Origin: Loxodes magnus
Lineage: Eukaryota > Ciliophora > Karyorelictea > Loxodida > Loxodidae
DNA: 64,000 nucleotides
Reading direction: 5' to 3'
Assembly: GCA_946699065.1 (NCBI GenBank)
Contig: CAMPDV010000452.1
Span: 124,001 to 188,000, forward strand
Positions within the stretch are counted from its first letter, which is position 1, and each line of letters opens with the position of its first letter. Positions 5,787-50,124 of the stretch are shown here, one piece after another. Both the position numbers and the translations under genes were made by a program. Under the pieces are notes generated by a model. The model had not been told where the DNA came from, did not search any database, and was given only the letters and a program-made list of their open reading frames with translations.

Positions 5787-6873
5787 TCAACTCGAAATGC
5801 TCCACTTTCTTATCGTCTTGTCCCATGATCCCGATACCAACCATCTATTATCAACACTCAATGCTATAGAAGATATTGATCCTGCATGCCCTTATAAAGT
5901 CTATATACACTCACCTTTATCAAAATTCCAGATCTTGATTGTTTTATCATTTGAACCAGAAAAGATAACACTTGAATCAACACTTAACTTAATACTTGAT
6001 ATAACATCTGCATGACCTTGAAGAGTACGAATACACTAACCAGAAGAGAAGTCCCATATCTTAATAGTCCTGTCACCAGAACCCGATATGATATATCTAT
6101 TATCCTTAGACACTATCACCGAGAAAACATAACCTGATTGCCCAGTAAGAATTCGCACAAGCTGACCAGTCTAGAAATCCCAAATCTTTATAGTTTTATC
6201 ACCAGATCCCGATATAATATATCTAGAGTCATAGGAGAGTACTACCGATATAACTGTATTAGTATGCTCAGACAAAGTTCTTTGGAGAACACCATTGTGG
6301 AAATTTCAGATCTTTATGGTTGCATCGTAAGATCCTGATATAATATAGCTAGAGTCATAGGAGATTACTACTGATCTAACTGAGGAAGTATGCCCCGTTA
6401 AAGTTCTTATGAGAGAACCAGTCTATAAGTTTCAGATCTTTATAGTTGAATCTCCAGATGCTGATACGATATAGCTAGAGTCTGAGGAGATTACTACCGA
6501 GTTAACTGAGGAAGTATGTCCCGTTATAGTTCTTATGAGAGCACCTGTCTGGAAATTCCAGATCTTTATCGAATACTCAGGATATCCTGAACCTGATACA
6601 ATTCAATTCATGTCACTTGATATAGCTAACGAGTAAACAACTGAAGTGTGACCAGTAAGGACTTAGTCTAAAAAATATTAAAGAAATACCTTTACTTTGG
6701 TCATAACTGATCTTGTTTATTAACTTTTAGTAGCATAAGTTAGGCAGAATTTCATACTTAAAATGAAGTAGAGATATTTTCCCTAGGATGTGGCTTCTCG
6801 CTCTTAAGAGTTTTCTTAAAAAAATAATTTTAGCGAATTGCTTTTCTTTTTTCTCCGTTTCTTTTTTCTCCAT
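5787..6873 (-). CDS. WD40-A: seven-bladed beta-propeller protein, one 22-nt intron
   Basis: Spliced length is 354 residues. Exon 1 (6690-6873) starts at ATG 6873, preceded by an A-rich leader, and encodes about 61 residues, Lys/Glu-rich then hydrophobic (FLRKLLRARSHILGK). Exon 2 (5787-6667) encodes exactly seven WD40 blades of about 42 residues with the frame GH-xxx-V-x-SV...YIxSGS-x-D-x-TIKIW. UAR is Gln (WDFQTG, TLQGH). In-frame UGA occurs at residues 83, 140 and 182; the last two replace the Trp of KIW. The UGA at 5787-5789, directly after blade 7 (RKWSISS), is taken as the stop. WD40 propellers bind peptides or proteins; the partner is unknown. The blade slots that vary face the ligand side in known propellers. 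An antisense shadow ORF lies at 6138-6338. Confidence 0.85.
6668..6689 (-). other. 22-nt intron of WD40-A
   Basis: On the minus strand it begins GTATTTC and ends TTTTTTAG. Removing it joins ...YDQSK (exon 1) to DQVLTGH (exon 2), splitting a GAC codon after its G, and puts the ATG in frame with the seven blades. It is identical in all three units. No transcript is available, so splicing is inferred. Confidence 0.75.
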
Positions 6874-6879
6874 TTTAAT

Positions 6880-9800
6880 TTTTATAAATTACTTTAATAA
6901 ATATTTAATTAAAATAACTCAATAAATTTTACTTACTTAATTTCAATACAATTAAACAATTAAATTATTTATTAAACATATTTATAAATATCTCATTTCT
7001 TAAACATTGATTTTTCTATTTTTGTCTTAAAACAAGACAAGATATTAAACTAATAGTGTACAAACTTTTAAGATTTTAATTATTTTATATTCTTTTACTT
7101 TTAAATGAAAGGATAATTTATTATATCAAAAGTTTATAATGAAGAATTTATATCCTTATTATAATAACTTTAATATGCATTTATTAATTACAATTTATTT
7201 GTGCTTTAAATCAAAGACTTTTAATAAGAAAACCTTATTTCTTTGTAAATTAATTTAAATGATAAATAAAATATTACAATTCTTTTAAAAGCTACTGCTA
7301 TTAATTATTACTTTTCACTTACATTTAATCAAAAAAATTATTTATTTAATCTTTTTACTAATAAAAAAAATGAAAAAAATAAGTTTCTTATTAATTAGCT
7401 TAAATATATATTAAAAAACATCAAATTATTTTAAAAAAGCATTTTTAGAATCTATAATATAAACTCTTTTAATTGTCCACTTTCTTACTACTATTTAATT
7501 AAAACTTTTTATTTATAAAGGTCTCTCTTATAATAATAAACTAATATAATTTATTATAATGTTGATTCTAAGCAAAATATATAAATGTAATAAATAGAAG
7601 TAGTAGAAAGTAAATATTTAAACTAGCTATAAATGGTGTATCACTAATTTTATCTTACAATTATTAAATAGTAATATTTAATTTTATTATTAAAATAAGC
7701 TTTAATATGTTTAATTATGTCTATTAAATACTTAATATTTTATCCTTTTAGCTTTATTAGTTATTAATTAATTTCTCTTTAATTTAGATATTAGATTAGT
7801 TATAATTAATACATTTAGATAACTTTCTCTTTTTATAGCAAACTAATATTAATTATTTAGGTTATTTTAGTAATTATCATTTCTAATTAATAATACCTAA
7901 ATTATTCTAGATTATTTAAAGATAAAAACTTAATTCTATTATTCTATACTTATCCAAAAAACATAGTTACCACTATTAATACTCTCTTTCTTAAATGTTG
8001 TTTGCTATTAAGAAATTTATAAGCTTTTAAGAAAGAAAGCATATTTTTACTATTTTCTATTATTATTTTCTGAATTAATAGAAAGAGTAAACTTAACATA
8101 ATATGTTTCTTTGTAGTATTAGATAATATAAGTATTAGATTAGCTAATATAAGTTATTTAAAACTAATCTAACAGATTATTATTTACCCTTAATACATTT
8201 TATTAATCTACTATTATTCTATATCTTTCTGTTCCTAATAAACAATTCTACATGTTTTGCTTTATAGCACATCATCATTTATTAATCTTATTACAAAAGA
8301 TTTAAACCTAAAAAGATGATATAGATAGTTATAGAAATATTTGAAACTTAGGCATTAAAATGAGCTAGATTTTTAGATTATTTATAATTTTCCTAAATTT
8401 AAATTATATTTATATATTCCTTTTTATTAACTATCTTCTGTAATTAACTTTTGTTTGAAAAACTGATAAAAAGATACATTCTGTAAAATATTTAGTCTTA
8501 ATTTATCTAAGTTTAAAAATGTTTATGAATATAAGAATATATTAAATTTAAAGTATTAATGATACTAGTTCTATAAAACATTTAGGTAATTATATGTACT
8601 TATATAAATAGTAAAGAGAAAACATTATTTTTTTATATAATTAAATAAAGAAAAGCTAGCCTAAATATTCAATAGAGTCAATTATTCATATATCTAAAAT
8701 CCTCTATTTATCTTACAATCAAGTACTTAATATATTATAGTCTCCTTTACTCCTTTAGTAATATTAATTCATAAAAACTTAAAAGAAAATTCCTTTTTAC
8801 TTTAACTGTACTTGGAAATATTCTATATACTTTAACTAGTTAAAGATAGGTTTAATTAGAGACTAATAAGAAATTTTCTTATCCTCTAGATAAAATATTT
8901 AATAAAACTGTGATTGCATTTCTTATTAATGAAGAATAATATTTTAAATTAAAATAAGGAAAATTAATATTTTTATTTTTGTTTAATAAAAATTTAAAAT
9001 AATTTATATATAATCTATTAATATTTTATAAAAAACCAAAGTAAAGGCAAATAAATTAATTAAATATAATTTAAAAATATTAAGAAAATTTATAATTCTA
9101 AATGATATTATAAATAAATATTTTAAATATTTTAAATATTTTATTATTGTTTAGATAAACATATAATAAATTATGTAAATTATATTTAAACTTAGAAATG
9201 TAGTAAAATATTTTTAAAAGTTAAATTAAAAATTATAAGGAAAACTTAAGAAATTAAATTTTTCTATAAAAAGAGAATATAAAATTTACTAATTATTTAA
9301 TTGACACTATCAATTTTGTTAATTATTAAAAATATTACTAAAAGAAAAATAAAGTATAAATTAATTAAATTAATTAATTTAAAAAATAAAAAAAATTATA
9401 ATTTTAAATTTTATATTTAACAATATTTGTGATAAAGATAAATATTAAAGAATACAAATTTTATAAATCTAGCATCGATTGACTTTTTAAATAAAGAAAT
9501 TCAACATAAAAATAATTATTCTTAGAAATTTTCAATTTCAATTTAAAAATATAAAAAAGTTAAAAAAGTTAAAAATGTTAAAAATGTTAAAAAATTCTCT
9601 AACTCTCAGATTTTTATAATCAGCCTATTCAAAGATAGTTTATTTTTACTATTTTTCATAGATTATGGATGTATATATGGTATAAGTATTAATTATTTTA
9701 CTAATCTCAAATTTACTTCTGCTTAAGTGAAAACTTTTAATAAATAAGTAAAAATAATTTAATTTTTTATTTTCTAATTCTTTTTCTAAACTTAATATGA

Positions 9801-11940
9801 AATCCCACTAAATGTTTTTAAAAATAATTTAATTTATATCAATATTAAGATTCTAATTTTAAATGTTAAGTAAAGTAGCAAAATAAATTATAATTTTGAA
9901 TTAAAAACATATTTATTTTTTAATTTTATTGATTCAAATATGCCTATAAATAAAAAAATATGAAATTAGAACCATTTTTTATTAAAAGGAGAGTTAAAAA
10001 TTGTCTAAGAACAATAAATAAAATTAAATTAAAGTTTTTGATAAATTTGTATTAATAAAATATAAACTATATAAATTTGAATATTATTCTTGCTTATTTA
10101 AAATTTAATATTATTTAAATATTTTAAATATTTCTGATTATTAAATTTTATAAAAACTTACTAATTTATAGTTATTAATTATTAGTGAAAATAATATTAT
10201 TATAATACTATTTATAATTTATTTACGTATCTTATATTTATTATTTTTATATATTAAATTTCATAGAAAAATAATTAGTAATAATTAGTATTTAATAATT
10301 AATGCAATTCTACTAATTATAATTAAAATAAAAGTTTTCAAATTCTAGGTTTAACAGACTGGAAAATGGTATTTTTTTACTTAAAATAGGTACATAAGGA
10401 AAAATTATTTATTTATAAAATAAATTATATCAATAGAGTATATATCCCTTCTTATTTTTAGTTTCAAATATCCCTTTCTATTAACATTTATTTTTTAAAC
10501 AATTTTGTCGAAACTAATTATAAAAATCTATTTTGTAATAAATTCTCTATCAAGTTGATAAGTAATATTTATACTTTTATCGAAGAGAATTTCTTTCTAA
10601 TTATATTATAGCAAGTGGTTATCATACTTTCAAATATATATAAAAATTAAAATATAAATGAGAATAGCATTTTAAAGCCTTTACATTATAAAAAGATGTA
10701 TTTTATAGATAGTAAATTTAAGCAAAGAAATGATAAAGTAATAAAGAATATAATAAATAATTTTATATAATGAATGGATTCTTTTTATCTATTATAAAAA
10801 TATTTAATTTCTTATTATATATTAAAATAATATATTTTTATATTTATAAAATAGTTTTAATTAATTTCTCATATAACTTTAGTTTAGCAAAATCTTTATA
10901 AATTAAAAAGAATTTAGATATCAAATTTAAAATATTTAATTTGTAAAATTATTAAAAATTTAATAAAACTATAATATGATTTTAAGATATAATTAGAAAT
11001 AAAAGAAAGTATATAATTTATGTATCCTATTTAAAAAATATAGTTAAAATTATTTAATATATTTAAATAGCTTAAAAAATAATTTTCTTTGTTTTTAAAC
11101 ATTTTAAGAATAGTATTAAATAATTTTAAGTTATATATGGAAATAAATATTACTATTTTAATAATAATTATAAATTAAATAGTTTAATTTATATAATTCT
11201 TTCAAACTTTATTTATTAGCATTTTCATATCTTATAATTTTTATTATTAGATTCTAAATATTTTTAATAGTGAAATTTTATATTTAGTTTTTATTTGTTT
11301 CAATACATTTTTCTTCGTTATAACTTTATTATTAAATTGTGTCATTTATAATATTTATCATATTCTTTTTTTGATTAAATATTATCTTATATTTGTTAAA
11401 TTCTTGTCATAATAACTTATTAATATCGTAATTATATTACTTAAAATTTAAGCTCCAATTAATTTAATTCTAGCGAATATCTTCCAATTAATTAAATTTC
11501 TTCAACAATAAATTAATCTATTTTTTCTATATTTTAAATTATTTTATTTCAAATTGTCATATTCTATTAAAAAATTATTCTGATGTTTAATAAAGTTCAA
11601 AAAGTTATTTTTTGCTCATTTTTTCACTTAAATTTTTTTATTTCAAGAAAAATTTGACTAAAATCTTAATTATCACAGTATCAGCCAAGCTTTTTTCTCA
11701 ACTAGAATCGAATGATTAAGTTTAAATGAAATTCATAGTTTATTTAATAGTATTATTTTAATTTTTCATTTGTATTATCGATATCCTTTTTTATATAAAA
11801 GCTTCTAACTTTTGGAGTAAAACAAATATCTTTGGAATTAATGAGGAGAAAATGCATACTTAAAATTAAATCATTTGATACTATAAAGTTTTAGATAAAA
11901 CAGCAAATATTAGGTTTTGTAATTATTATTATATAAAATT
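6880..11940. other. Long A+T-rich intergenic region, strongly conserved between units
   Basis: About 5 kb upstream of WD40-A with no supported gene on either strand. From about 8.0 to 9.7 kb I see almost no differences from units 2 and 3, less than in the WD40 exon. It contains a short 9-10-bp tandem (AAAAAGTTA-like) near 9550 and the indel at 9750-9835. It presumably holds the WD40 promoter at its left end, but I see no recognisable promoter motif. Confidence 0.55.
9750..9835. repeat. 54-bp segment flanked by 16-bp direct repeats, unit 1 only
   Basis: AAAAATAATTTAATTT occurs at 9750-9765 and 9820-9835, enclosing 54 bp. Units 2 and 3 have a single copy of the repeat and no insert (near 30608 and 52998). 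The repeat length matches the 15-16-bp duplications of the retroinsertions here, so it could be a very short truncated retroinsertion. Loss from the ancestor of units 2 and 3 is equally possible. Confidence 0.6.
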
Positions 11941-11984
11941 GTTTCTCCATTATTAAGGAGTTTTACCCTCAAAAGTACAGCGCT

Positions 11985-12797
11985 TCAAGCTTTTCGCTGT
12001 TCGTTAAAATACTTGGGGCAACAGAAAGATTACACGTACCCATCCGCGGGTTTTTTTAATAGGTTTTACGTTATAATTCCCTTAGGACTTGGTTATAGCT
12101 CCATTTTCTTCCTCTTGTTCGTACTTCCATTCTCGTGCAAAAAATCTTGTTCAGCCCAATTGCTTTTGTTCGCTTTGCTTATCAGAAATTCTATTGTTTC
12201 CATTGAAACTTCTTACAGTTCCGATATAGTTTTTATTGGTTTTAGAAGCGAAAGCATCTCGTCTTAATCGAAATATTTTCATTTGAGATTAAGCTTAGGG
12301 TTTGACGAATATTGAGATCGATCCAGTATTAGCTATTCTATTCTTGATTCTTTTAGGAGTTAAATTTCCTATTCTTATTTCACTACTTAATCCATCAGCT
12401 AAGTTGTGTTTTTATCCTAATGGTGTTGGATGCCGAAGAGCGCATCCATTTGCGTTCATAGTCATCTATACGATCCCCATCCATTTAATTCTTTTCTTTG
12501 TGGCTTGAAAATTAGCTTTTTGTTCTAGTATTTAAACTTTTAAACCTCTTCATTGAAGTTCACCACTCTTAATGCAAACTACACTACATCAAATTGCTCA
12601 GAGTTAAAGCCAAAGGATCGTTCCTAGTCACGCAATATCATCTCCTACTGCCTTCGAGGCCTCTCTTCCGTTTTGGAGTTTACCAAGTTTGTTTCTGTCG
12701 TTTACGACTTTGGAAGTTGTTAGGTCTGTTATTAGTTTTTTTGCTGATAAAAGGTTGTTCTAATTAAAGAAAAGACGTGAGGTTAGAAGAATGACAT
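11985..12797 (-). CDS. ORF1a: coiled-coil ORF1-like protein, intact in unit 1
   Basis: Read from ATG 12797 with UAR=Gln and UGA=Trp this is one open frame of 270 residues ending at UGA 11985-11987. It has a Gln-rich N-terminus (about residues 18-35), a coiled-coil stretch VVNFNEEVQKFKYQNKKLIF at about 78-97, a second helix-rich part (DQVVKQEQEIQLLKESRIEQ) at about 136-155, a Lys-rich part at about 226-232 and a Cys pair (FCCPKYF) near 259. In-frame UGA at residues 112, 114 and 173. The N-EEV-KLK-N-K pattern matches ORF1b, so I place it in the non-LTR ORF1 family by inference. It is more G+C-rich than its surroundings. Standard-code readings on the opposite strand (12013-12267, 12302-12508) are shadows. 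The stop is uncertain. Confidence 0.5.
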
Positions 12798-13199
12798 CTC
12801 GCTTCCTCTCTTCCTTTTTGTCTTTTGAAGAGGTGGCAAAGAAGCCCTATCGGATGTTTGACATTTTTTTAATTACATATAAATTGATGTAATTTATAAT
12901 TATCCAAGCTAGAAAAAACTTAAAATTTGATGAAGTTAATAATTTAAAATAATTTAATTATTAGATTTAACCTTTTAAATAAAATTTAGTCTTAAACATT
13001 TTTTATTTTAAGTTTTGAATATTAAATTATTAAATTAAATTATTAAATTAAATATGTTAAAGTAAATAATTTTAATTATTTTTAGCTTTTAATATTGCTT
13101 CAATAAGAGCTTGCAATATTATTAGAATATAAATATTTAAAGGTAGTTTAATTAAAAGCGTTTTTAAAGTTTCTATCTATATAGAGGACAAAAACTCAA

Positions 13200-15110
13200 A
13201 CTCTATAAATATATTTCGCATTTCAAATGATGTGGATCACCATGCAAAGCAGCCCCATAAATTTATGAGAATGATGAAAAACATATAGGGTATCCTGCCT
13301 CGTTTTCTATTTGTTGCTATATTCTTTCTTTTTCTTGTTGAAGATACCTACTGTTTGAATAGCTTTTTCTGAAGGAATATACTCGATTTCCTCTTATGTT
13401 TCCTCTTATATTTCTTCCTGCTTTTCTTCACTTTCTTCTACATATTTTTGTTATGCATCCTGATTTGCTCTTATAGTTTATCCTAATTACATTGCTATAA
13501 GACTTGCTTATTCTTTACATGATTTTCTTCTTTTTCTCCAATTCATATCGTAATTGTTAAGCTTGGAAGTTTTTTCTTGAAAACCTCATATACTGCGCTA
13601 TTTTAAAATACTGTTCTTGCAATTATAAATAAAATAAATTTGACTCCTAAAGGTGGCGTAGGTTTTTCTTCTTTATAACCATCTAATTTTCTCTTATATA
13701 ACTCGAGCATTTTCTTCAGTTCAATCTTTTGGTATACCGAAAATATTAGTTTTTTATTATTTGCTATTTTAAGATGTATAAATTTGATTTGAAAAGGGAA
13801 ATCTTAAGATTTTATAAATATTTCACATTTATTTAGTTTTATTTACTTTTTCTTATTCAGTTTATTAAGTACTAAGAACATTTTAAGTATTTTAGTCTAT
13901 TTTTTAGTGGGAGCATTTTATTATACTACTTTAAGTATCTACTCTCCTGTTCAAACAGCACATCTATTAAACTTACTAGCTTCTAGAATAAATTCGGCAA
14001 CTCCTGCTTCACTTAAGGAGCTTTTCCCACTTGGACAGATGCTAAACATAGAATAGTAATTCCATTCAAATGTTTACAATTTTACCTTACTAAAAATTAA
14101 TTCTTCTAAGTAGCATATAAGCTAGACATTCTTCATGGTCTCTAAAATACTGTTCTGAAGCAATCTAATTCAAAATTTCAACTTATTGTCGTATTTTGCA
14201 CTGAACTTCATACTTTTTTGTGTAAATATTCAATCAGTTAATCACTTTCAAATATGCTTTTCATTTAAAGACTTGGAATATTTCTAGCAAATCTTTCCCA
14301 AATCATTCTAAGGATTTAATCAGATAATCCATCAGCTGTTATATTTTATTGATGAGTAAAATATAAACCATAGAAAAAACATCATAAATCGGTTATTTAA
14401 GAATGCTTTACTATTTCAAAATATCTCATATTATAAAGTATGAAGTCATAGTCACTAGGATCAAGAAAATTTATATAATCTCTATATTTTAAAGCTGCTT
14501 CAAGAGAGCTATTTCTCTTCATCATCAGTTCTTCCAATAGCTATATTCCTTACAATTTCAACTAAAAGCTTACCAAGTTAGGAACTTTCACGGATTATTC
14601 TCTTAGAATTATTTATACAGTGTTTATCATAGCCAATATATAGATTAAAAATTTGTCTTCTTCTGATCTATAATAAGCCATTAAAGTACCATAAATACAT
14701 GCTAGGTAAGACTAAACCATTTCAAGAGCATATATTTTTTATTTCCCCTCTAATCTTAAAAACTTATTCTATGCATCAGGCTCTATATGTACGAAAAATG
14801 ATATTAATCAGTTTTAGTTCTCAGGGAGTTTCTTTCTCTAAAATGCATTATTTATTATACTGCAAGGTAATAATCCTAAAACACCTCACTAATTTACACG
14901 CTTCATCCAGACCCAATTATTAGTTCTAAAATACAAACAGGTACAGTTCCCTTTTGTAATGTTACATCTGTTTCTGGTAATTAAAAAGCTAGCACTAAAT
15001 ACGCATCAGCTTCAGTTTTTCCATCATGATTTTTAAAGGTATCATTAAGCATTTAAATTCCTACATTTTATCTCAATAAATTTTATCTCTCTGCAGCTCA
15101 CTAAATATGA
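13200..15110 (-). pseudogene. Frame-broken coding remnant, family not recognised
   Basis: Several stretches of the minus strand read as natural protein but in different frames. They include TFKNHDGKTEADAYLVLAF (near 15040), a long block near 14330-14760 with KQKIYALEMVQSYLACIYGT and SSLEAALKYRDYINFLDPSD, then ADGLSDQILRMIWERFARNI (near 14310), an acidic coiled coil EEKQEEIQEETQEEIEYIPS (near 13410) and a Lys-rich end. Since all stops may be sense, the exact frame changes cannot be fixed. The three units share the same apparent breaks, so decay preceded duplication. It could be an old mobile-element gene or a gene with tiny introns. I assign no function. Confidence 0.4.
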
Positions 15111-15449
15111 GATGGTATTTAATAATTAATTATTGGAGACAGGCAATCTTAATAAGATATAAAAAGTACAGGGACTGTAAATTTAATAACAATAAAAAGT
15201 GTTAATTAATATATAATAGATTTTTAGAATATTTATACTACTGAAGACGCGGTATGGGTCAGAATTAATTACTTGAACTATTCTTCAGAGATAAAAAATA
15301 AAATGATATAATCACTGACTAAAGATAAGTAGCAAGATGTGCTTTACAAAGTCTTATCTACTTTTAATGAATCTTACTTTATTGTCTTTAATTGGTTATT
15401 CTTTTAAAATTACATTGCAATGTATTATTTCGAATTCTATATAAAACTT

Positions 15450-16212
15450 TACAATGAATCTTAAACGGATCTCAGCTCTTATTTAGCATTTCTTTTTAGT
15501 AACCTTAAATATTTCAAGAATTCTAAATAGATGAATTAACATTTTCAAATAGAACTTTAAGATGCTAGTAGTAGCAAATAATTTTAAATAAAGTTTTAAA
15601 TAAAATAGAATAAACATTTTATTCAGATGTAATAGGAAGGTTGAGTGCAATGCCTACTTCACACCTTTATTTTAAAGATTAAGATAATAACATTGAATAA
15701 TAGAAATTTCCAACTTTTACTTACACAATATTAAACAAGACAATGATTAGAGAAATAGTATCAATTTTCAAATTAATGACCTTTAGTTACAATTTTTAGT
15801 ATTATTTGAGATATAGGTACTATTAAATAAAACACTCTGAAATTTGCATTTGCGGAGAATAAGAAACCTATTAACATATTTCTTAATGTGAAGCTCTGCA
15901 AGATTTAATGGAAGAATTTAAAGACTTGAAAAATTATGATTTGCTTAAACTTATAACTAGCAAAAAAATTAAATTAATCTTAACTTCCATACTCTAAGAT
16001 AACTTTAACAAATTGACTACAGAATTAAATACTTTTATTCAAAATTGCTTCATAGAATAATTTAAATTTTAGAGTAAAAAACGAACAAGTGGAAGAGTTA
16101 ATGGAATAATTTGACTAGTGAGCAAGTGCAGAAGAAAATGATTAAAGAAAATTAAATCAAGATTATTGAGATGGAAGTTGTAAAACATTTTTTATTATCT
16201 ATATGAAATATG
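15450..16212 (+). pseudogene. 3' end of a non-LTR retrotransposon ORF2, unit 1
   Basis: The plus strand from about 15620 reads FYSDVIGRLSAMPTSHLYF, then a basic-aromatic stretch (YYLRYRYYQIKHSE) and the zinc-finger motif CICGEQETYQHISQC with C-x-C-x7-H-x3-C at 15845-15889. This finger typically lies C-terminal to the reverse transcriptase in CR1/R1-like non-LTR elements. Helical Leu/Lys-rich sequence follows. No reverse-transcriptase core is present upstream, so it is a 5'-truncated relic. It is oriented opposite to the other elements of the unit. Confidence 0.65.
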
Positions 16213-16544
16213 GTAAAAACATATAAATTTTAATTATTATATATATTAATCAATATAAGTCAAAAAAATAACCATTTTTAATATTTAACTTAGTTTTTAA
16301 ATTATATATCAAAAAATTTTAATTTAAATTAGAATTATAATTGAAAATATTATTAAAATTAAGGCTTTAAAAATGAAAGCTAATGTTTTCATAGTTAAAT
16401 TATTTTTTTAATTAAATTAGTAATTAGTTATCATTTTCATATTACATCAAGATTAAAAATTGCTTTGCAATTACAACAATTTTTCTGTTTAATTAAAATG
16501 CTGCAAAAATTTTAATTAATTATAAATAATAAAAATTAAAGTTT

Positions 16545-17721: not shown

Positions 17722-17759
17722 ATCTTAATTTAATAAATAGAGCAATAAAGATATCTAAT

Positions 17760-19795: not shown

Positions 19796-19799
19796 AAAT

Positions 19800-21020: not shown

Positions 21021-21027
21021 TTTTAAA

Positions 21028-38496: not shown

Positions 38497-38512
38497 CTAA
38501 AATTAAAAGGTT
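38497..38512. repeat. Left target-site duplication of ORF1c element, unit 2
   Basis: CTAAAATTAAAAGGTT, repeated at 39297-39312. The unoccupied site in unit 1 has it once. Confidence 0.9.
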
Positions 38513-39167: not shown

Positions 39168-39296
39168 GTAGGGGTTGAATGTCCTAATCTAGGCCTGAAA
39201 GTTACAATATTTTGCTTCTTGGGAAGGTCCTCAGTCGATATTGTTTCATGTTAGTGTTTCTAGGGTTGTCTGGGGGGGTGTTGTTTAGAGTTGCTC
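38513..39296 (-). mobile_element. 784-bp ORF1-only retroinsertion, unit 2
   Basis: Inserted on the minus strand between 16-bp duplications. The 5' end begins GAGCAACTCTAAACAACACC. The 3' end is a T/A-rich tail, CTTTAATTTAAATTTAA. It contains an ORF1 but no ORF2 and no endonuclease or reverse transcriptase, so it must have been mobilised in trans. This resembles the 'half' LINEs of mammals (HAL1) in layout. It is more G+C-rich than the target. Confidence 0.8.
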
Positions 39297-39312
39297 CTAA
39301 AATTAAAAGGTT
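39297..39312. repeat. Right target-site duplication of ORF1c element, unit 2
   Basis: Second copy of CTAAAATTAAAAGGTT, followed by the ATCTTAATTTAATAAATAGA that also follows the empty site in unit 1. Confidence 0.9.
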
Positions 39313-39339
39313 ATCTTAATTTAATAAATAGAGCAATAA

Positions 39340-40300
39340 AGATATCTAAAACTTAATAAATTCTAATAGAAAAAAGATTGAAATTAAAAGAGATAATATT
39401 TATAGGATATTAATGAATCTATTAAGTTAAAAATAATTTCTAAAGTTTTATTATTATTATTAATAATTAATTCTTATGCTACATAATTATTTAATTTAGT
39501 ATAAACTAGCTAAAATGTAATAAAAATAGAATATAAAATAAGTTGTTTAAGTTTAATAAAATAGATTTAAAATACTTTGATTAATATATAGTTAAATATT
39601 CTAAAAGGGATTCCTTGATTATGAAAGTTTTAAATTAGGCTTTTTAATAAATTGAATATGATTTAGTGATAATTTTAGAATATTTAAAGTAAATTAGGAT
39701 TATTTAATAAATGATAATTGAATTTGATTAAAAAGGATAAAATGATTAGTTAGTATTTTGACTTAAAGTAGTTAATGAATAATAGACTAATGATTTAATG
39801 ATTATATTGATTTTGAATAATAATGTTTATAGTTTTAAAATATTAGTAGTATAATCCCTTATAATGCTTTTATATTTTTGATGACTAATTTAAATTAATC
39901 TTTTTTGATAAAATAATAATTTAATTAATTAATTTTATTATTTTTAAATTAAATATACTAATTATTTATTTATCAATTCATAGTCATTTAACATTATTTA
40001 AATAACATTTAACTATATCAACAGTAACTATCAAAACTACTATTACTACTATCAAATATACTATTTACATATTTTTACTAACAAACCTAAATAACTCATT
40101 TCAAATTACTTCTTTAATAACTTATATAATATCTATTTATTATTTAACATACAAATATTACATTCTACTATTATAACAAAAACTATAACCTATTTTACTT
40201 CTACTAAATCCAAACCCATACCTAGTTATTAGATTATTAGAAACTAAAAAAAACTAAATACCATTTACTTTATTCCTATTAATATCAAACCTCTACTAAA
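39340..40300. other. GC-skew switch, unit 2
   Basis: Counterpart of 17760-18700; the switch lies near 39900-39960. Confidence 0.7.
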
Positions 40301-40850
40301 ATTATTTCTATTTCTTAAATAAGAAAAAGAAGCAATAGTTTAAGGGTACTTCTAAAACTAAAATTTAGAAATTTAAAATGTTTGCTTTAAAGTTTCCTCC
40401 TTAATAAACCATTATTTGAGTTATTTGCTTTACTATAATAAAGCATAATATTATTTCCTAAAATAGAATTTTAACATAAGAACAACATGTGTAAGAGAAA
40501 GATTTAGATTAGCTATCTATAAGTCATTAAATATTGTACAAGTGTTGGGAATAATAGTTTATTTTTACCTTTCATTTTAATATCGACAATGATAACTCCA
40601 ATTTAACAAAAATAATTCTACTTAGTAAAAAGAAAAAAATTACATCATTTAATCTTTATTCTTAAAATAAGAGCAAAGAAATTAATTTGAAGTAAGATAA
40701 ATATTTATTAAAATTAAGAGTTATCAAGATAATCAAAACCTTGCTTACTTATGAATATCCGCAAATAGATATTATAATTGATGATTTCAAAGAGTTTAGT
40801 AAGCATAGGATTATTTAACAAAAAATTTATTCTAAAATACCTTTAAAGAA

Positions 40851-41522
40851 ATGCAGTCATATAAACAGCGAAAAGATTTGTTGATTTAATAAGAGATATA
40901 TAAAAAGTTTTCTCTTTAATAATATACGCTAAATACAATAGACGTCTAATTTAAGAAACTATTTCAATCTAAAAAATTAATTACTTATCTTATAACCTTT
41001 AATATGAACGGAATCGTCGATATATTAAAACTCAATTCAATAAAGTTTGCTTAAGTAGATAGGAATTTGATACGTTTGAGTACATTTTCAAACGTAATCT
41101 TTTTGCAGATATTAAAAAATTTTAATAAACTTAAAATAATTAATGGAAAATAGTGTAAAAGACTTGTTTTATATGACTAAAACTATATTAATAAATAATT
41201 TACAAAAGATAAGATAATTAAATTAGATAAGTACATAAAAATATTTCATCAATAATATTTAGGAGACCATTTAAGATTTTAAGAACTAGAATGAAGAGAA
41301 AATAAGTTATATTAAAAACCCATAAACAGATTTAATGAGCTAAAAAATTCTTTATCAAGATGAGAGTGAAAGAGAACCATGAATGAAATATACAAACTTT
41401 TAAATTTAGCGTAATTTGCATGGTTAAATGCCAATAATTATACAATTATGTCTCAATATTTAAAATATTTAAACTCTTATAGTTTATTATTATTACTTAT
41501 TATTTAAACTTTTAAATAGTGA
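40851..41522 (+). CDS. Candidate protein, family not recognised
   Basis: 223 codons from ATG 40851 to UGA 41520-41522 with UAR=Gln and UGA=Trp. The N-terminus is MQSYKQRKDLLIQQEIYKKF. The middle is Leu/Ile/Asn-rich (LKLNSIKFAQVDRNLIRLST). A Trp-rich segment made by in-frame UGAs (SRWEWKRTMNEIYKLLNL) follows, and the end is hydrophobic (YSLLLLLIIQTF). Unit 1 and 3 copies carry frame-shifting indels. Base changes between copies hit all codon positions, so there is no clear sign of selection for protein. It could be a decayed gene or chance openness. I assign no function. Confidence 0.3.
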
Positions 41523-41529
41523 ATAAGAT

Positions 41530-42440
41530 TTTTTATTTATTAATTTTTAAAAATTAAAATAAATTATTTTAATAATTATCATTTATTTTATTATTTTAAG
41601 CTAAAATATGGGCCTTTCTAATATAGCTGTTGATATATATAAATAATAAAAATGATAGGATAAATAAAATTTAATCATTTAGCACTTTAAATTTGATATA
41701 TAAATTAATAATTTATACTTAACTTTAAAAAATAATAAAAGTTAGTTAAGATTATTATTATAATTACTTATATTACTTAGAACTAAAAATTATACATTCA
41801 TTAAATTTATAATTATTGATAATTCTTTATTAATTTTATTTTATACAGTTATCTCTAAAGATATGTTTAACTATATTTACTTTTTAATTTACTAAATTAT
41901 TGTTTTAATTATTGTAGACATTAATTATCAAATGTGAACTTTTATATTTTTATAATCTAGTAATCAAATGCTTATTGTTAACCAATTATTTAAAACTCAT
42001 ATCAAAATTATGAAAAGCATCCTCTTTATTAGTTTTAAATTGATACAAAGATAATTAATTCTAGCTAAGCATATAATTATTTAATTATTTGATATAGTAT
42101 TTTTAATATTAATATCTTACTATTATAAAGGATTATTTTAAACTATATTTTGCTATCATTTAGAATTTATATTATTAAAGTAATAAAGCTAAAGTTTCCT
42201 TTAGTTTACTTAGAACTTAAATTCCTTTTAGATATTTCTTCCTTTATATTATCTATGTTTTATTAATTATAGTTAAATAAAGAGTTATTTAAATGGCTTA
42301 ATTAGCAATTTAACTAGTTTTTAAAACTTAAATTTTAATATTTATTTATAAAAATAAATGGTATAAATTAAAGCTATTTAGTAATAATATTTCAATTTAA
42401 TAATAGAGTTATTGTATGAAACTGTTTATTTAAATTTTAA
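41530..42440. other. A+T-rich stretch, unit 2
   Basis: No gene seen. Counterpart of 19800-21020 without the ~195-bp segment. Confidence 0.5.
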
Positions 42441-42444
42441 ATTA

Positions 42445-44880
42445 AAAGAGTTTTTTGAAATCTATAACTGCATGAATTGCTTCCTTCAATTATAGACATT
42501 AGTAAATGTTTTTAATGCTTTTTAATTATAATCTTGATTTCATAAATTTTAAATTACTCTTGTTATAGTTTCTCTTTTATGTCTTCCTTTTTTACTTTTT
42601 TCATTTCTAAAAATCTAATCTTCTTGATATAAGTTACTTGTGAAATACTTTTATTTATAAATCTAAATATCCCAAATAAGACTTTGGAAAGAAGTTTATA
42701 AGTATTTAATCATATATTATAAAGCGTCTTAAGTCATAATTCCCAATCTTTTACGATAGTCAATCTCTTATATTAGAATAGTATATACATCTAAAAATGT
42801 GCTAAATTTTACCATACTCTCCACACATACACTAGGGATTATCAATAGGATAATGACAATCTTAAAGATCTTTTCGAAAACTATAAGATTGGGTTCTAAG
42901 CTTATATATACTGATAATTTCTTGTCTAAATTATTTGTTCAATTTAGTGTAAGTAATTACTAGAATTGGTTAAGATACGAAATTGTTTAGTATATATTTT
43001 AGCTTTTTCATTCTCTTAAACTTTTGAGTAGCTGTATTATAGAAATATTATTGTATTTTGTCTCTTATATATTTAGTAAACATTTTTTAATTTGTACTAA
43101 TCTTAGAATTCTACTGATCGATACTATAGAGGTCTGATAATTGCTAAACTTGATCATAGCATTGAAATCCTTTTTTTCAGTTGGTAATGAAAAGAGAGCC
43201 TATTGTCGACGTTGGAAAATCAATATTTTCTTATTTCATTTTATAATAGAATTAAAAAAACTTTATTGCCATAATGTGTTTGAAAGATAACCAGTTTAAA
43301 TCTATGAAACATAACTTATTTATGTGCTTAAAGTGCTTTTCTTGAAATCATTCTCATATTTGATTCAATTCTATTCAAAACTCAAGTTATTCCTCTCTGA
43401 ATACACCATGGTACTAGTTCTCTCCATATTCTGCTTTAGGTAATGTAAAAAGTCTGCATAAAGTTTTAAAATGTCAAGAAATCACATTCTTATATCTCAT
43501 AAGTTAAAAACAGCTTTTTCATTGTAACTAAATACTTGATCACGACTTCTCTACAATGAGAATTAAAATTCTTCTTCTAATGTAGCATTACATCTAAATA
43601 TGTTACTTGTTCCTTTTAAATAATTGGTTAATTATCTAATCATAAATTTAAATTTTATTATTTCTAATGTTTCTTTAAAATTTAGATGTATTCAGATTTG
43701 ATAAATTTTATCTTTAATTGATTTTATGTAAAAATGCTTATCTTTAGCACGTTTCCGATAGTTATTAATTATTTGTTATATTATTCAAATTTATTAAGTT
43801 GTTTATCTAATTTTTATAAATCCCATTTATGTAGGGTGAATCAAATTTTTCTAATAAAGCAGATTGCAAATTCTTTTTGTTAAAGCTTTATCATATAGTT
43901 TTATAATAATATTAATAAGAGAAATAGGTAGTCAGTTTTTCCAGTCATCTTTGATTCCTTTTTTAATATTGAAATTATCGCCAATGTATTTAAATTCCTA
44001 AGGGATTCTTCCAAATTTTAACATATTATTCAGAAAAGAGTGAAGAATTATTATCCAATATTATCCACAATATTTCAGAAATTCACCTTTTATTCAAGCT
44101 GAAAAAGCTGATTTTCCATTCGTAATTTCTTGTATGGTAAAAAGATAAAATCTTAATAAATATGAGAGTTGATAATTTTTAATTTCCTATATACTATCTT
44201 ATATTTTATCTATTTTTTAATTACTAAGAATTATATTATTTAGTTAGATTAAAATTTTTCTTAAAAATAAATTCTTCCATGACTCAATGGATTTATTTTT
44301 GATTTCTTAATCAAAGTTCATTTAATTTATTTTTTTAGGATTTTTAATTTTCTTAGTATGTGAAAATATTTCTTTAGCATCTCCATTTAGAAGTAAAAGT
44401 TTCTTTTTTGCTTTGTTTTTTCAAAATTTCGCAAATTAGAATTGAAGTCATTCAGAATATCGTTTCACTTTTTCATGAATATTAGTTACTTATTTGTTTA
44501 TTCTTCCAGAAATAATGTATGCTTCTTATATACTTAGTTAGCCCTTTTAGGCCTATATATTTCTTAATAAGATCTCGAGAAATTTGTTATAACTTGAGTC
44601 TGGAATAAAGAATCCTAATGTTTAATCAGCATTGTATTAGATGTTATTTTTGATAAATTCATATTAAACTTCAAGATTATCTTAATCTTTCTAAAAGAAT
44701 TCTAGATAAGTTTGCAGGAAAGATTCTAAATATTTTTGACGATATATTGCATCTTATAACCTATTTATTTTATATTTCCTCAAATTCTTGCTCATCTTCA
44801 ATTAATCTCATATAAAATTAAGTTTTGTTTTATAAATCAATTTGCAGAAAAAATTATCTTTTTAAGCTATAATATCATCT
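42445..44880 (-). pseudogene. ORF2 (reverse transcriptase) remnant at the unit 2/3 junction
   Basis: Counterpart of 21028-23470, with the same missing catalytic segment and the same UGA positions (before LPVSL and after the CMCG finger). Differences include a 9-bp loss at the ITNGKSA entry near 44130 and UAA in place of the far C-terminal UGA near 42450. Confidence 0.7.
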
Positions 44881-45129
44881 TATCACTGTTTATCTTATAA
44901 AAGAATTGTTTTAAGAATTAAGTTTTTATCTTTAAATAATCTAGCAATTTTCAGTTGATATCATACTTTATGAATAAATATAATTACAATCTTTAAAATA
45001 TTAATAAAATAGATAAATAAACAATAAATAATGACTATTTAATTAGAAAATGAATATGAAAACATTTTAATTTAATTTCTTGATAAGATATTTTAAATTA
45101 AAATAAGTGTTTAATCTTTTAAAAATCAT

Positions 45130-45144
45130 ATTTATTAAACCACT
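45130..45144. repeat. Left target-site duplication of the ORF2 insertion
   Basis: ATTTATTAAACCACT, repeated at 45863-45877; single in unit 2 at 23726-23740. Confidence 0.9.
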
Positions 45145-45862
45145 ACAGAACAATTTTAAAACCTAAGATAATTCCCCAAAATAACATACACGAAATTAAA
45201 CAAAATTATTTGAAAGAAATAATTTGCATCTATAAGATTAGAAGCCAGTCTTACGCATTTCGAAAGACTCTGAAAGATCGAAATTATATTATTGAAAATC
45301 CTTTTTGTATATGCGGAGAATATGACACTCTCCAACATGTAATGGAATGTATATATTACATTGATATAAGAGAATGATTTGTCTCCAAAATTGGTTAATG
45401 TGATATTTTGAAACTAATAAATTACGATTAACTATATATAAACTCTTTTCCTAAGAAAAAAATAGAAATGGTGGATGAATAAATAAAAATATTCATTCAA
45501 ATGTTTATCAAAAGGAGAATGAAGAATAATAAAATCAAGAAAGCAAAGAATAAGATGTCCAACAAAATTAGATGAAAAATGATGAGGAAGAAGAAGATTG
45601 GAACGAAAAGGAAAACGATAGCGAAGATGAAGAAGAAGAAGATTGACAACAGAAAATAGAAAAAAATGAAAGTTAGCTTGAAAATGAACAAGAAAGGAGA
45701 TACTTAGAAGAAAAAAAAACCTAAACTAGAAAATTAGTTCTGAAGAGCAATAAACTTGATATATAATAACATTTAAAAACAATATAATACTTTCAATTGG
45801 AAGAACATATTCTGAAAATTGAAGGTACCACAAATTTTTTTAGTTAAATTAAATTAAATTTA
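45145..45862 (+). mobile_element. 718-bp 5'-truncated non-LTR insertion, unit 3 only
   Basis: Lies between 15-bp duplications. It starts abruptly inside coding sequence (AGAACAATTTTAAAACC) and ends with an A/T-rich tail TTAGTTAAATTAAATTAAAT. 5' truncation with a target-site duplication is the hallmark of target-primed reverse transcription. Absent from units 1 and 2, so it is the youngest event visible here. Confidence 0.85.
45147..45743 (+). CDS. C-terminal part of non-LTR ORF2 with CCHC-type finger
   Basis: The frame is open from the 5' junction: NIHEIKQNYLKEIICIYKIR, SYAFRKTLKDRNYI, then the finger CICGEYDTLQHVMEC (C-x-C-x7-H-x3-C), CIYYIDIRE, UGA (45375-45377), FVSKIGQCDILKL, YDQLYINSFPKKK. 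It matches the junction ORF2 remnants closely on both sides of the UGA, which is therefore read as Trp. A Lys-rich tail follows to UGA 45741-45743. Around 45570-45650 the alternative frame is strongly acidic (EEEEDWNEKENDSEDEEEED), so the tail frame is uncertain. Antisense readings at 45156-45338 and 45497-45691 are shadows. Confidence 0.65.
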
Positions 45863-45877
45863 ATTTATTAAACCACT
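45863..45877. repeat. Right target-site duplication of the ORF2 insertion
   Basis: Second copy of ATTTATTAAACCACT, followed by TTAAATATTATTATG as in the other units. Confidence 0.9.
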
Positions 45878-45889
45878 TTAAATATTATT

Positions 45890-47640
45890 ATGTTTTGAAT
45901 ATTTAGTATCTTAAATAAAAAATTACTATATTGTATAATAACCAAACATTTATTAAAGGAATGTGAAATTAAAAATTATAATTTAGTTGTCAAATAATTT
46001 AGAATAAAACAAAAATAGCTCATTATTAAGATCATTTATGAAATTGTGTACTATTAGCATTATCGGCTAAGTAGAAACTTTGCTTTTTATTATGCTTTAT
46101 ATGTTTCTTTTTATATTGTACGAAATATTTCCCATTTTTTATAGATATAATTATAATAGTTATTAACTTACACTTTGTATATTATTTTAATTATACAAAA
46201 GATTAAAGCTTTTAACCTTTTTTGATATAATCAAAACTATATTGATTTCTTAATTATTTACACTTTCATTTTGCTAATTCTTATTATTTAATATTAGAAT
46301 ATAATTTTATTCTTATTTTAGATGGAAATATAAGATAATTTACAAGAAAGTGAAGATTTTTATAATTTTGCATATATTCAAATTATTTATATAGTTTACT
46401 AGCAAATGTTTTTTATATGATAAATAATCAATCAATTTTTTAAAAAGCTTTCAGCTTTAATAAAATAGCTTCATTAGAAATTCAATCTTTAAGATTAATA
46501 AATAAAATCGATTTTCTATATACATAGTAGATATATTCAAGTTGCTTAAAATCAGAAAGTTTATCTTTAAAGCTTTTCTTTTAATATTACAGAATGAGAA
46601 AAATTTTAAAGAGAAAAAATACTTAATATAGCAATTTTTCTTAAAAACTTGCTTTCCTCTTCTAAATTAACATCTTTTCGCAAACTATAAACAGATAGTT
46701 AGTCGTAGTAAGCTCTTTTCAAAACTCTTTTACTAATCTTAAATTTTTAATATTTTTATAATTATTATAATAAAGCAGAATATTTTTAAACTTGATTAAT
46801 AAATTTTTGTTTCTATATTTTATATAGTTAGGTTAGATACATTATTTAGATCCTTGTTTAATTACTTTTTTTAGATTCTTTGTAAATTGGCCTAAAATTT
46901 ATTATTACAGATGTATTGTACCTCATTTTTTCTATTTGATTGATCATATTTTTATAAAGAGATTTTTTAGCTCTTTTTAGATTAGCTATTTTTTTAAATT
47001 TACAATATCCATTAAAAAAATAGTTTTAAGCCCTCTTATAAAAAACTTGTTTATTGATTTTGTTTCTTCCTAAAATTTTAATTTATTTTTTTATATTTAC
47101 TTCTTAAAAGTAATTTAAAAAACTTCTCAAATCTTTTAAAATTCTATCCCTTTAAGAAAAAGATTTATCCATCCCGAAAATCTTTTGTAGCGAAAAAAGG
47201 ATAATTTTTTCACGATTTCATGGTTATTTTATTATATCTATTTTTTCTTGAGATCCTTTTCATTTAAGTAAATTCTTATAATATTAAAAATTTTTTAAAC
47301 GAATTTTTTCGTTTACTCGAAAATATGTTCAAAATTAAAAATTGTATTTTTTCCAAAACATAAACAATACATTTTTTTTATAATTTCAAACATAATTAAC
47401 CTTATCAAAAATATACTATTAAATAAAAAAGAAAAAAAGTTTTGTTTAAAATTTTTAAAAAATTTTTCCTAAAAGAAAAAATTTTTTTATTTTTACAAAA
47501 TACCATTTCAACAAAAAAATTCCAAATTCTATTTTAATATAAAATTTTTTTAATTCCTATTTTTTCTCAAAAATTTTTTATATTTGGAATTTTTTCTTGA
47601 AATTTTATTCCAATTTTATAATTTTTTATCCCGAAATAAT
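45890..47640. other. A+T-rich stretch, unit 3
   Basis: No gene seen. Counterpart of 2621-4331 and retains the segment lost from unit 2. Confidence 0.5.
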
Positions 47641-47646
47641 TAAATT

Positions 47647-47805
47647 TATTCCGTTCCAGAAATCTTTGGTAGTGTAAAATGCTGAGCAAAAAACAAATTT
47701 TTTATTTTCATTAAAATTAAGCTCTAAAATTGAAAAATAATGATAAATAAAAAACAAAATATCAGAAAATTTTATAATTCAATCGGAAACGAAACATATT
47801 AGAAT
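47647..47805. repeat. Dispersed ~150-bp repeat, copy a of unit 3
   Basis: Matches 4525-4680, with CCGTTCCAGAAATCTTT as the head. Confidence 0.7.
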
Positions 47806-48159
47806 ACAAATTATAAATTTATTATTGAACTTAAACACAAGAATAAACAAATTTAAATAAATTTATTAGCATATAACTTAAAAAATTAAATTTCCATCCT
47901 AAAATTTAAAATTTTTTTAGTTTTAAGTCTATTTATAAAAAAAAACCTTTTTTTACATATTAAAAAAATGTATCCCGTCCCAGAAATATTTATCAAAAAA
48001 AGTTTTCAAAAAAATTCCTTAAAAAAAATTTAAAGATTTTTAAAATTAATTTCCAAATTTTATTTCCAAAACGATTTTAGATAATTATTTTCAAAATTAT
48101 TTTAGAAACGCTTTTCTAAGAAATTTTAAAAACTTTTTTTAAACATTATTTTCAAAATT

Positions 48160-48330
48160 TTTATTCCAATTTTAGAATTTTTTATCCTGAAATAAAAAAA
48201 TTTATTCCTATTTAGAATTTTTTATCCCGAAATAAAAAAATTTATTCCTATTTAGAATTTTTTATCCCGAAATCAAAAATTTATTCCTATTTAGAATTTT
48301 TTATCCCGAAATCAAAAAATTTATTCCGTC
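48160..48330. repeat. Minisatellite of about 42 bp, expanded in unit 3
   Basis: About four copies of a unit containing TTTATTCCTATTTAGAATTT and TTTTATCCCGAAATAAAAAA. Units 1 (near 5080-5120) and 2 (near 25870-25930) have one to two copies. It sits directly before dispersed repeat copy b. Confidence 0.8.
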
Positions 48331-48480
48331 CCAGAAATCTTTCATAGTATAAAACGCTGAGCAAAAACAAATTTTTAATTTTCATGAAATTTAAACTCTA
48401 AAATTGAAAGATAATGATAAATAAAAAACTTAATTTCAGAAAATTTTATAATCCAATCGGAAACGAAAAATATTAAAATT
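48322..48480. repeat. Dispersed ~150-bp repeat, copy b of unit 3
   Basis: Matches 25927-26085, including the CATAGTATAAAACGCT variant. Confidence 0.7.
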
Positions 48481-48484
48481 TTAT

Positions 48485-48575
48485 AATATCAATAAATAAT
48501 AAATAATTAATAATAATTAATAATAATTAATAATAATAATAATCAATCATAAAAAATAAATAATAAAAAAACAAA
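48485..48575. repeat. (AAT)n microsatellite, unit 3
   Basis: Impure AAT run as in unit 2, with a different repeat order. Confidence 0.75.
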
Positions 48576-49040
48576 ATTTAATTTAATTTAATTTAAAATA
48601 AATACTTAATTAAATTTTTTAAATTATAATCAAGATTATTAACTAACTTTAACCTTATAAATAATATTTTAACCACTTCACAAAAAAAATGAAAATTTAT
48701 ACTCAACTTGAAATTTTTACAAAATCTAAAAATAAATCCATAAAATTTTATAGCATAAATTTAAACTTAAACTTATTTCATGCTTTCATTTAACAAAATT
48801 ATATTTTAAATATTTTTAAATATTACCACTTTAAATCAACATACCTCACTAATTTCTATAACCTATCACTCAACCTTTTTTTTAAACTAATAATATTTAA
48901 CAATATAACAAATTTTTAATTAATAATTAAAAAACTTCATATAACTAAAAACATTATTAGCATTAAACATTCATTTAAATGCATTACCAATATCTTATAT
49001 CTTTAATCGTAAAATTTAATTAAGTCAAATCATAAGTTAC

Positions 49041-50124
49041 TCAACTCGAAACTCTCCACTTTCTTATTGTCCTGTCCTCCGCTCCCGATACCAACCATCT
49101 ATTATCAACACTCAATGCTATAGACCATATTCATCCTGCATGCCCTTATAAAGTCTATATACACTCTCCTTTGTCAAAGTTCCATATCTTGATTGTTTCA
49201 TCATCAGAACCAGAAAATATAGCACTTGAATCAACACTTAACTGAATACTACATACACCATCTACATGACCTTGAAGAGTACGAATACACTAACCTGAAG
49301 AGAAGTCCCATATCTTAATAGTACTGTCACTAGAACCAGATATTATATACCTATTATCCTTAGACACTATCACCGATAAAACAGAACCTGAATGCCCAGT
49401 AAGAGTTCGTACAAGCTGACCTGTCTAGAAATCCCAAATCTTTATAGTTTTATCACCAGATCCCGATATAATATATCTAGAGTCATAGGAGAGTACTACC
49501 GAGGTAACTCTAGAAGTACGTCCCGACAAAGTTCTTTGGAGATCACCATTGAGGAAATTTCAGATCTTTATGGAGTAATCACCAGATCCTGATATAATAT
49601 AGCTAGAGTCCGGGGAGATTGCTACCGAGTAAACTGAGGAAGTATGCCCCGTTAAAGTTCTTATGAGAGAACCAGTCTATAAGTTTCAGATCTTTATGGT
49701 TTAGTCATCAGATCCTGATACGATATAGCTAGAGTCATAGGAGATTACTACCGATCTAACGAAGGAAGCATGTCCCGTTAAAGTTCTTATGAGAGCACCT
49801 GTCTGGAAATTCCAGATCTTTATAGAATATTCAGGATATGCTGAACCTGATACAATTCAATTCATATCATTTGATATGGCTACCGATAAAATAGGTGAAG
49901 TGTCAGTAATGACTTAGTCTAAAAAATATTAAAGAAATACCTTTACTTTGGTCATAACTGATCCTATTTATTAACTTTTAGTAGCATAAATTAGGCAGAA
50001 TTTCATACTTAAAATGAAGTAGAGATATTTTCCCTAGGATGTGGCTTCTCGCTCTTAAGAGTTTTCTTAAAAAAATAATTTTAGCAAATTGCTTTTCTTT
50101 TTTCTCCATTTATTTTCTCTCCAT
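49041..50124 (-). CDS. WD40-C: seven-bladed beta-propeller protein, one 22-nt intron
   Basis: 353 residues after splicing: exon 1 49941-50124 (ATG 50124; MERKQMEKKEKQFAK), exon 2 49041-49918. Slots differ from both other copies: blade 2 ASF-V-R and D-D-Q, blade 3 TSS-V-Y and G-D-Y, blade 4 TSR-V-T and G-D-K, blade 6 VDG-V-C and D-D-E, blade 7 AG-UGA-I-W and A-E-D-R. Blade 4 has GR in place of GH. UGA stands at the KIW of blades 2 and 3 as in WD40-A and -B. Stop UGA at 49041-49043 after RKWRVSS. An antisense standard-code reading at 49392-49592 is a shadow. Confidence 0.85.
49919..49940 (-). other. 22-nt intron of WD40-C
   Basis: Identical to the intron in WD40-A and WD40-B, and in the same phase. 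Confidence 0.75.

Follow-up and report, generated by a model that had tools for sequence, protein, structure and literature searches.

What kind of protein is made by neighboring genes that share almost the same intron and flanks and yet differ at many codons of their main exon? This question is raised by a 64,000-nucleotide (nt) stretch of the ciliate Loxodes magnus (hereafter the window; assembly GCA_946699065.1, contig CAMPDV010000452.1, positions 124,001 to 188,000, forward strand), which carries three tandem copies of a WD40 gene, here named A, B, and C. We propose that these genes probably belong to a very large family of stand-alone WD40 recognition proteins whose recognition slots diversify beyond the synonymous rate and whose variants are recombined between members. 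In each gene examined, a conserved 61-residue N-terminus is followed by one predicted seven-bladed propeller. In blades 2-7, four to six residues of each blade (24-36 altogether) are strongly variable, at an estimated rate above the synonymous one, and the variants appear to have been recombined between members, mostly in register, with every non-redundant gene sampled carrying its own combination.

Each gene lies on the minus strand. Its exon 1 is 184 nt long, its 22-nt intron is the same in all three, and its exon 2 holds seven WD40 blades spaced 42 residues apart. Gene A occupies 5787-6873. Its exon 1 (6690..6873) encodes the conserved, basic N-terminus; its intron (6668..6689) was placed by the reading frame and GT..AG ends; and its exon 2 (5787..6667) holds blades 1-4 (6534-6659, 6408-6533, 6282-6407, and 6156-6281), blades 5-7 (6030-6155, 5904-6029, and 5787-5903), and a putative TGA stop. 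The reading frame likewise delimits exon 1, intron, and exon 2 of gene B (27546..27729, 27524..27545, and 26646..27523) and of gene C (49941..50124, 49919..49940, and 49041..49918), with the introns placed as in gene A. In all three genes, blade 1 does not follow the pattern of the other blades, and in gene A it has one extra codon. The length of the intron fits the published range for L. magnus, where introns average 19.3 nt and 93% are at most 25 nt (PMC11441545, in excerpt).

The gene A protein matches the Pfam WD40 family (PF00400) in seven stretches (E 1.1e-75), and AlphaFold2 models it as one seven-bladed propeller with a predicted local distance difference test score (pLDDT) of 97.9 and a predicted template-modeling score (pTM) of 0.93. 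Foldseek returned matches to seven-blade structures, with a template-modeling (TM) score of 0.95 to 7big. Pfam, model, and Foldseek agree on what defines this fold, seven repeats in a single closed propeller. At the sequence level, the protein matches PDB entry 2ymu (E 1.2e-173) and is 27-52% identical to bacterial and eukaryotic WD40 proteins (best 120 of 6915 at E<=1e-10). The 61-residue N-terminus has no Pfam family at E<=0.001, and its sole match at E<=10 is a sub-threshold zinc-knuckle (E 0.013). A word-based search of 5.8 billion proteins for a homologue of this N-terminus gave five candidates, none at E<=10. Neither a NACHT nor a HET domain was found in the gene model by Pfam, a search in which upstream exons beyond the 61 residues were not profile-searched. 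Within the gene model, we therefore set aside both a known N-terminal domain and the engine of a NOD-like receptor (NLR), as neither Pfam nor the protein search gave a match above cut-off.

Among A, B, and C, divergence is 0 in the intron, 2.2-3.8% in exon 1, 3.0-4.8% in the near flanks, and 0.3-0.6% at 8000-10999 of the tandem units, and it rises to 9.7-12.9% in exon 2. These differences concentrate on particular residues of each blade, which we call slots. At the four main slots of blades 2-7, 23 of 24 positions differ among the three genes versus 29 of 223 others (Fisher p=5e-17), and with six slots per blade counted over all seven blades, 31/42 slot positions are variable versus 33/247 others (p=4e-15). 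A first-pass annotation of the window had claimed that the WD40 exons differ while flanks, exon 1, and intron are near-identical, and that the changes fall on the slots. Both claims hold, the residues it quoted for the slots of blades 5 and 6 are correct, and the equal divergence of slots and framework that it had named as refuting does not appear among A, B, and C. Its statement that framework residues stay fixed was too strong, given the 33 framework positions that vary. Synonymous change is raised as well: between tandem copies, 12-18% of non-slot synonymous sites in exon 2 differ (proportion of differing synonymous sites, pS, 0.12-0.18). Such synonymous divergence, well above that of the flanks, would not be expected from slot selection alone after a recent tandem duplication.

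The genes of the window have family members dispersed over the genome. A 27-nt tag that spans the intron and the first bases of exon 2 has exact matches at 827 places in the assembly of 705,730,643 bases, against 0 for the reversed control; as an exact-match count, this figure misses diverged members and may include both haplotypes of some loci. The tag was present in 20 of 30 members found by similarity, which suggests that the true family number is larger than 827, partly offset by uncollapsed haplotypes. The assembly was made with Falcon and collapsed at a 96% identity setting (PMC11441545, in excerpt). Copies that are nearly identical may in some cases be haplotypes or products of assembly. 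Five more matches lie on the contig of the window, outside 124001-188000. The three genes are thus in tandem within the window, as first described, but their number reflects where the window was cut.

For comparison, we assembled a non-random sample of 92 members, comprising L001-L090 (L001 being gene A) together with genes B and C. L001-L030 were 30 of 40 scored among 2657 first-look candidates, and L031-L090 were 60 dispersed loci from the first 100 listed of the 827 tag places. Six members (L031, L041, L048, L050, L084, and L085) were removed before alignment, leaving 86; removal of 12 out-of-frame members left 74, which are in frame with gene A across seven blades; and dropping those at least 97% identical left 55, of which 14 are local and 41 dispersed. 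Identity to gene A is about 86-90% for dispersed members of full length, and the N-terminus is common to the members compared.

In these 55 members, residues were numbered as offsets from the blade tryptophan, and variability was averaged over blades 2-7, with blade 1 and offsets +6 to +8 excluded. The most variable offsets were -7, -25, -23, and -5 (2.3-2.8 bits), followed by -26 (1.91 bits) and -27 (1.23 bits), while the remaining 33 of 39 offsets ranged from 0.02 to 0.86 bits. Within each slot pair, the residue in between (V/I or D) is conserved. Taken one blade at a time, the four main slots rank highest in blades 2-5, with -26 and -27 intruding in blades 6 and 7; outside the slot set, -17 in blade 2 and +6 in blade 3 are also high.

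Nonsynonymous diversity (piN) at the four main slots was 0.541 and synonymous diversity (piS) 0.311, a ratio of 1.74 (bootstrap 1.45-2.33) obtained by pairwise counting, and it tells against our reading that this method inflates slot piS through multi-hit codon paths and leaves tree and recombination unmodeled. The first-pass annotation had named a ratio of nonsynonymous to synonymous substitution (dN/dS) at or below 1 for the slots as refuting; pairwise counting does not give such a ratio there, and other positions are at 0.35. Framework residues gave a piN of 0.061 and a piS of 0.191 (ratio 0.32, bootstrap 0.25-0.42), and exon 1 a ratio of 0.33. Moreover, diversity at slot codons (0.495) exceeded that of the non-coding DNA next to these genes, which was 0.079 on the 5' side (52 sequences) and 0.137 on the 3' side (49 sequences). 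The first and second positions of slot codons are diverse, and their composition shows no adenine-only pattern. A comparison of insertions and deletions (0.04/0.60 gap runs per sequence in the exons versus 5.9/13.5 in non-coding DNA) was not used, because out-of-frame members had already been dropped and exon insertions relative to gene A were uncounted. Together, the rate data support diversifying change at the slots and purifying selection on the framework.

How the variants are distributed among genes points to exchange. Rank correlations of pairwise distances between blades ranged from -0.03 to 0.26 across the 55 genes. Descent without exchange is therefore disfavored, since blades would otherwise agree on relatedness. 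Slot combinations are distinct in 55 of 55 genes, with 286 distinct slot sets among 330 blades. None of these 286 sets occurs in full at two blade positions, which suggests that exchange may take place in register. We also compared the tandem genes with 45 in-frame dispersed members, without the 97% identity filter and with more than 800 possible donors in existence. Among 135 tests, gene C had an unbroken run of 102 identical nt with each of L088 and L089, two near-identical members whose overall identity to it is 87.4% (p=1e-5 each), and gene A had such a run of 82 nt with L072 (p=1e-4). Blade 3 of gene C (49540-49670) is 97-98% identical to 12 places on contigs C905, C2855, C352, and C319, L088/L089 included, with the next-best match at 92% (best 40 of 1821 candidates scored). 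Correlations, tracts, and the blade 3 search thus support exchange between paralogues of different loci, in line with the blade shuffling that the first-pass annotation had proposed to look for.

A number of results count against the reading proposed here or qualify it. In the family sample, 12 of 92 members were flagged as out of frame (L012 just by the cut of a contig end), 4 of 92 are missing one blade or two in full, and another 2 are truncated matches; part of the family is therefore decaying or misassembled. Within the tandem unit, other stretches are raised too: 2500-2999 (12-19%) exceeds exon 2, and 5000-5499 (2-10%) and 19000-19499 (0.4-8%) are further examples among others. The exon 2 peak is therefore strong, not unique. 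Half-blade slot sets recur at more than one position (11/211 for the first half and 36/84 for the second, figures in which chance is not separated), and exchange may thus not be strictly in register. Among 41 gene pairs with at most two differences in one blade, only 8 have both neighboring blades (or the single neighbor of an end blade) at least 10% different, and none of these chimaera-like pairs involves blades 3, 5, or 6. The tract signal is modest: p<0.01 was reached by 9/135 pairs of a window gene and a dispersed member, where 1.35 would be expected, and by 17/399 dispersed pairs, where 4.0 would be. Lastly, in 32 unrelated WD40 homologues the slots also rank among the more variable positions (mean entropy 3.23 versus 1.85 bits). 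Where the variation falls is thus in part a general WD40 trait, and we rejected it as proof of recognition by itself; the weight rests on the rate comparison.

The first-pass annotation had drawn a parallel to the fungal HNWD proteins (HET-D, HET-E, and HET-R of Podospora anserina), and the parallel stands for slot positions and diversification, not for architecture. Both systems have 42-residue WD40 blades. The hypervariable positions of HNWD proteins are 10, 11, 12, 14, 30, 32, and 39 of the blade (PMC12222747, in excerpt), and Loxodes offsets -7, -25, -23, -5, -26, and -27 correspond to positions 30, 12, 14, 32, 11, and 10. Thus, six of the seven HNWD positions are the six most variable of the 39 Loxodes offsets; the seventh, position 39 (offset +2), is not variable in Loxodes (0.41 bits). 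The four strongest Loxodes slots have the spacing of HNWD codons 7, 9, 25, and 27, and both systems show diversifying selection with a conserved residue between the members of a slot pair (PMC1805685, in excerpt). Exchange among family members is also common to both (PMC2873952, in excerpt). In the AlphaFold2 model of gene A, with secondary structure assigned by DSSP, the slots of blades 2 and 3 fall on the start of the first strand and on the turn between the second and third strands, the same places that form the HNWD interaction face (excerpt of PMC1805685). The slots would therefore map to that face, as modeled for these two blades.

The two systems differ in other respects. HNWD proteins are fungal NACHT-WD40 NLRs with a HET domain and set off cell death when they recognize a partner, whereas the gene model of the ciliate matches neither NACHT nor HET. 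The HNWD family has 10 members (PMC1805685, in excerpt), in contrast to the 827 tag copies and single seven-blade propeller of Loxodes. HNWD units are shuffled (PMC2873952, in excerpt), while no Loxodes slot set occurs in full at two positions (0/286). Because a search of the gene model gave neither NACHT nor HET, we do not file the family under HNWD or NLR; it would work like an HNWD sensor, at nearly the same positions, without being a member of either group. The Loxodes genes are best read as encoding hypervariable WD40 recognition proteins convergent on the fungal HNWD sensors. Similar fold and blades are found in the repetitive or designed propellers 2ymu, Tako8, and WRAP-T, which are individual proteins or designs, unlike the diversifying family of hundreds in one genome described here.

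If this is right, paralogues would serve as mutual donors through gene conversion or unequal exchange, and new binding faces would be kept by selection on ligand binding. The common N-terminus would tie any propeller to one shared cellular output. Binding a changing set of ligands is most likely the job of these proteins, as judged from their sequences; such ligands might be non-self molecules of prey, symbionts, or pathogens, or might come from other Loxodes cells. The roles that the first-pass annotation had suggested, in self/non-self, mating, or prey/pathogen sensing, are speculative. Antigen and receptor families diversified by gene conversion, such as VSG, vlsE, and lamprey VLR, have a constant frame, variable cassettes, and many donors, features that the Loxodes family has in common with them. 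A point of difference is that no sign of a single expression site, switching, or a surface location was seen in the Loxodes family. An antibody-like repertoire would go further: this free-living unicellular organism would keep hundreds of paralogous 'receptors' of one propeller each, with gene conversion reassorting their blades. Such reassortment might extend to the somatic nucleus and make cells or clones differ, and each cell would express one member or a few. We regard this version as a long shot.

Other explanations make less of recognition. The propellers could be fixed adaptors, each for a different endogenous partner, for example substrate receptors of a degradation or trafficking machine, that have undergone ordinary subfunctionalization with no arms race. 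WD40 proteins often act as adaptors, and the short N-terminus common to the compared members would suit such a role; weak correlation between blades of the same gene and slot diversification above the synonymous rate are both difficult to reconcile with stable partners numbering in the hundreds, and we consider this explanation unlikely. We are also doubtful that a repeat or mobile element of about 2.9 kb, or larger segmental repeats, carry the WD40 gene along as a passenger, with copy number set by the element and slot variation reflecting relaxed constraint plus recombination. Hundreds of dispersed tags, a shared block of that size with recurrent edges, conserved 5' non-coding DNA, and a repeat-rich genome (PMC11441545, in excerpt) are what a passenger would show. 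Relaxed constraint fits poorly with a framework piN/piS of 0.32 and with a slot piN (0.541) higher than both framework piS (0.191) and the diversity of non-coding DNA next to these genes. Moreover, the 25 longest of 62 inverted-repeat pairs around 5150-8400 are AT-rich, with 71-87% matches, and include no clear terminal pair, and two flank types occur at the 8167 edge of the block.

The variation could instead be made by a targeted mutator, either somatic or resembling a diversity-generating retroelement, in place of exchange and selection. Changes at the slots often hit several nucleotides per codon, with diversity at the first and second codon positions, as a mutator might produce. Nevertheless, synonymous framework sites of the same exon are raised too (pS 0.12-0.18), and long tracts are common to separate loci, both of which fit exchange. 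Slot composition is without an adenine-only pattern, an observation made with no search for a template repeat or reverse transcriptase, and a mutator strikes us as very improbable.

The block shared with other members spans 5297..8167 (minus strand) and comprises the gene with about 1.3 kb of conserved 5' and about 0.5 kb of 3' non-coding DNA; its edges recur near 5297 and 8167, and two dispersed loci (L091 and L092) were read at 8 kb length. The 5' portion (6874-8167) is AT-rich and, in L091 and L092, mostly more conserved than the WD40 exon (0.8-1.0 versus 0.80-0.95 per 100 nt). It could be a promoter or a recombination anchor. At the 8167 edge, two flank sequences alternate between members (L019-L021, L025-L027, and L091), which suggests two larger repeat backgrounds. 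Near-identical members also occur in opposite orientation, 37 kb apart on contig C98 (L055/L056) and 128 kb apart on C294 (L077/L079), through either recent inverted duplication or an assembly artefact. Tags cluster toward contig ends (12 contigs >700 kb, Kolmogorov-Smirnov p 5e-5). We set aside subtelomeric placement, as assembly breaks at the repeat can explain the clustering: contig C33 ends inside a family member (L100). Telomeres are described as undetected in Loxodes (PMC11441545, in excerpt).

The window has a G+C content of about 20% and, under the standard bacterial code, no open frame of at least 150 residues anywhere. We read it under code 27, with TAA and TAG as glutamine and TGA as tryptophan or stop. 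With TGA as tryptophan, genes A, B, and C stay open across the blades, each to a TGA; this last TGA would be the stop, with TGA otherwise read as tryptophan. At conserved tryptophan positions of the 55 members, 168 TGA and 342 TGG codons interchange at the same sites. TGA therefore encodes tryptophan and the genes are unbroken by these codons, and we rejected the view that in-frame TGAs mark pseudogenes. Along the gene, conserved tryptophan codons 83, 140, and 182 are TGA in 51, 53, and 54 of 55 genes, codon 98 is mostly TGG (49), and those past 182 are TGA in fewer than three genes each. This pattern agrees with a published finding that coding TGA is depleted near stops (PMC11441545, in excerpt), yet extends further upstream.

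Repeat comparison divides the window into tandem unit 1 (2399..23364, about 21 kb, with gene A), unit 2 (23365..45143, about 22 kb, with gene B; right edge approximate, 44771-45144), and unit 3 (45144..64000, with gene C; left edge approximate), which is cut by the end of the window. No tRNA and no Rfam match at gathering thresholds were found in the window, and translations of 10 other open reading frames (ORFs) in the unit had no Pfam family above cut-off. Between 11900 and 17100, G+C-rich stretches (11908-12881, 13166-13733, 13905-15414, and 16597-17077) are probably coding; they differ between units mostly by 0-2%, up to 5% at 12000-12499, and have no Pfam match above cut-off. About 0.8 kb of inserted sequence is present in units 2 and 3 (38521-39338 and 60883-61685, minus strand) and absent from unit 1 near 17720. 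It contains an open frame with the knuckle-like motif KKCYICRRTDHLWRC. A related ORF at 1395-2033 (minus strand; 26% identity, E 7e-8) carries KKCYYCNSKWHLYKNC. These ORFs, with no Pfam match above cut-off, are possibly another multigene or gag-like family.

Our searches of an open-licence PMC library for literature on Loxodes, ciliate WD40 proteins, and related topics listed no description of the WD40 family. The term 'WD40' has 0 occurrences in the main text of the L. magnus genome paper, as far as its excerpts go (PMC11441545), and a word search of PMC6935857 likewise gave none. If our reading is true, the hypervariable WD40 recognition familiar above all from the incompatibility NLRs of fungi would extend to ciliates, where hundreds of genes in one genome would encode the propeller alone, with no NLR engine attached. 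One could then test by what means a unicellular eukaryote assembles and keeps a large binding repertoire, and whether convergence has led fungi and ciliates to the same propeller positions.

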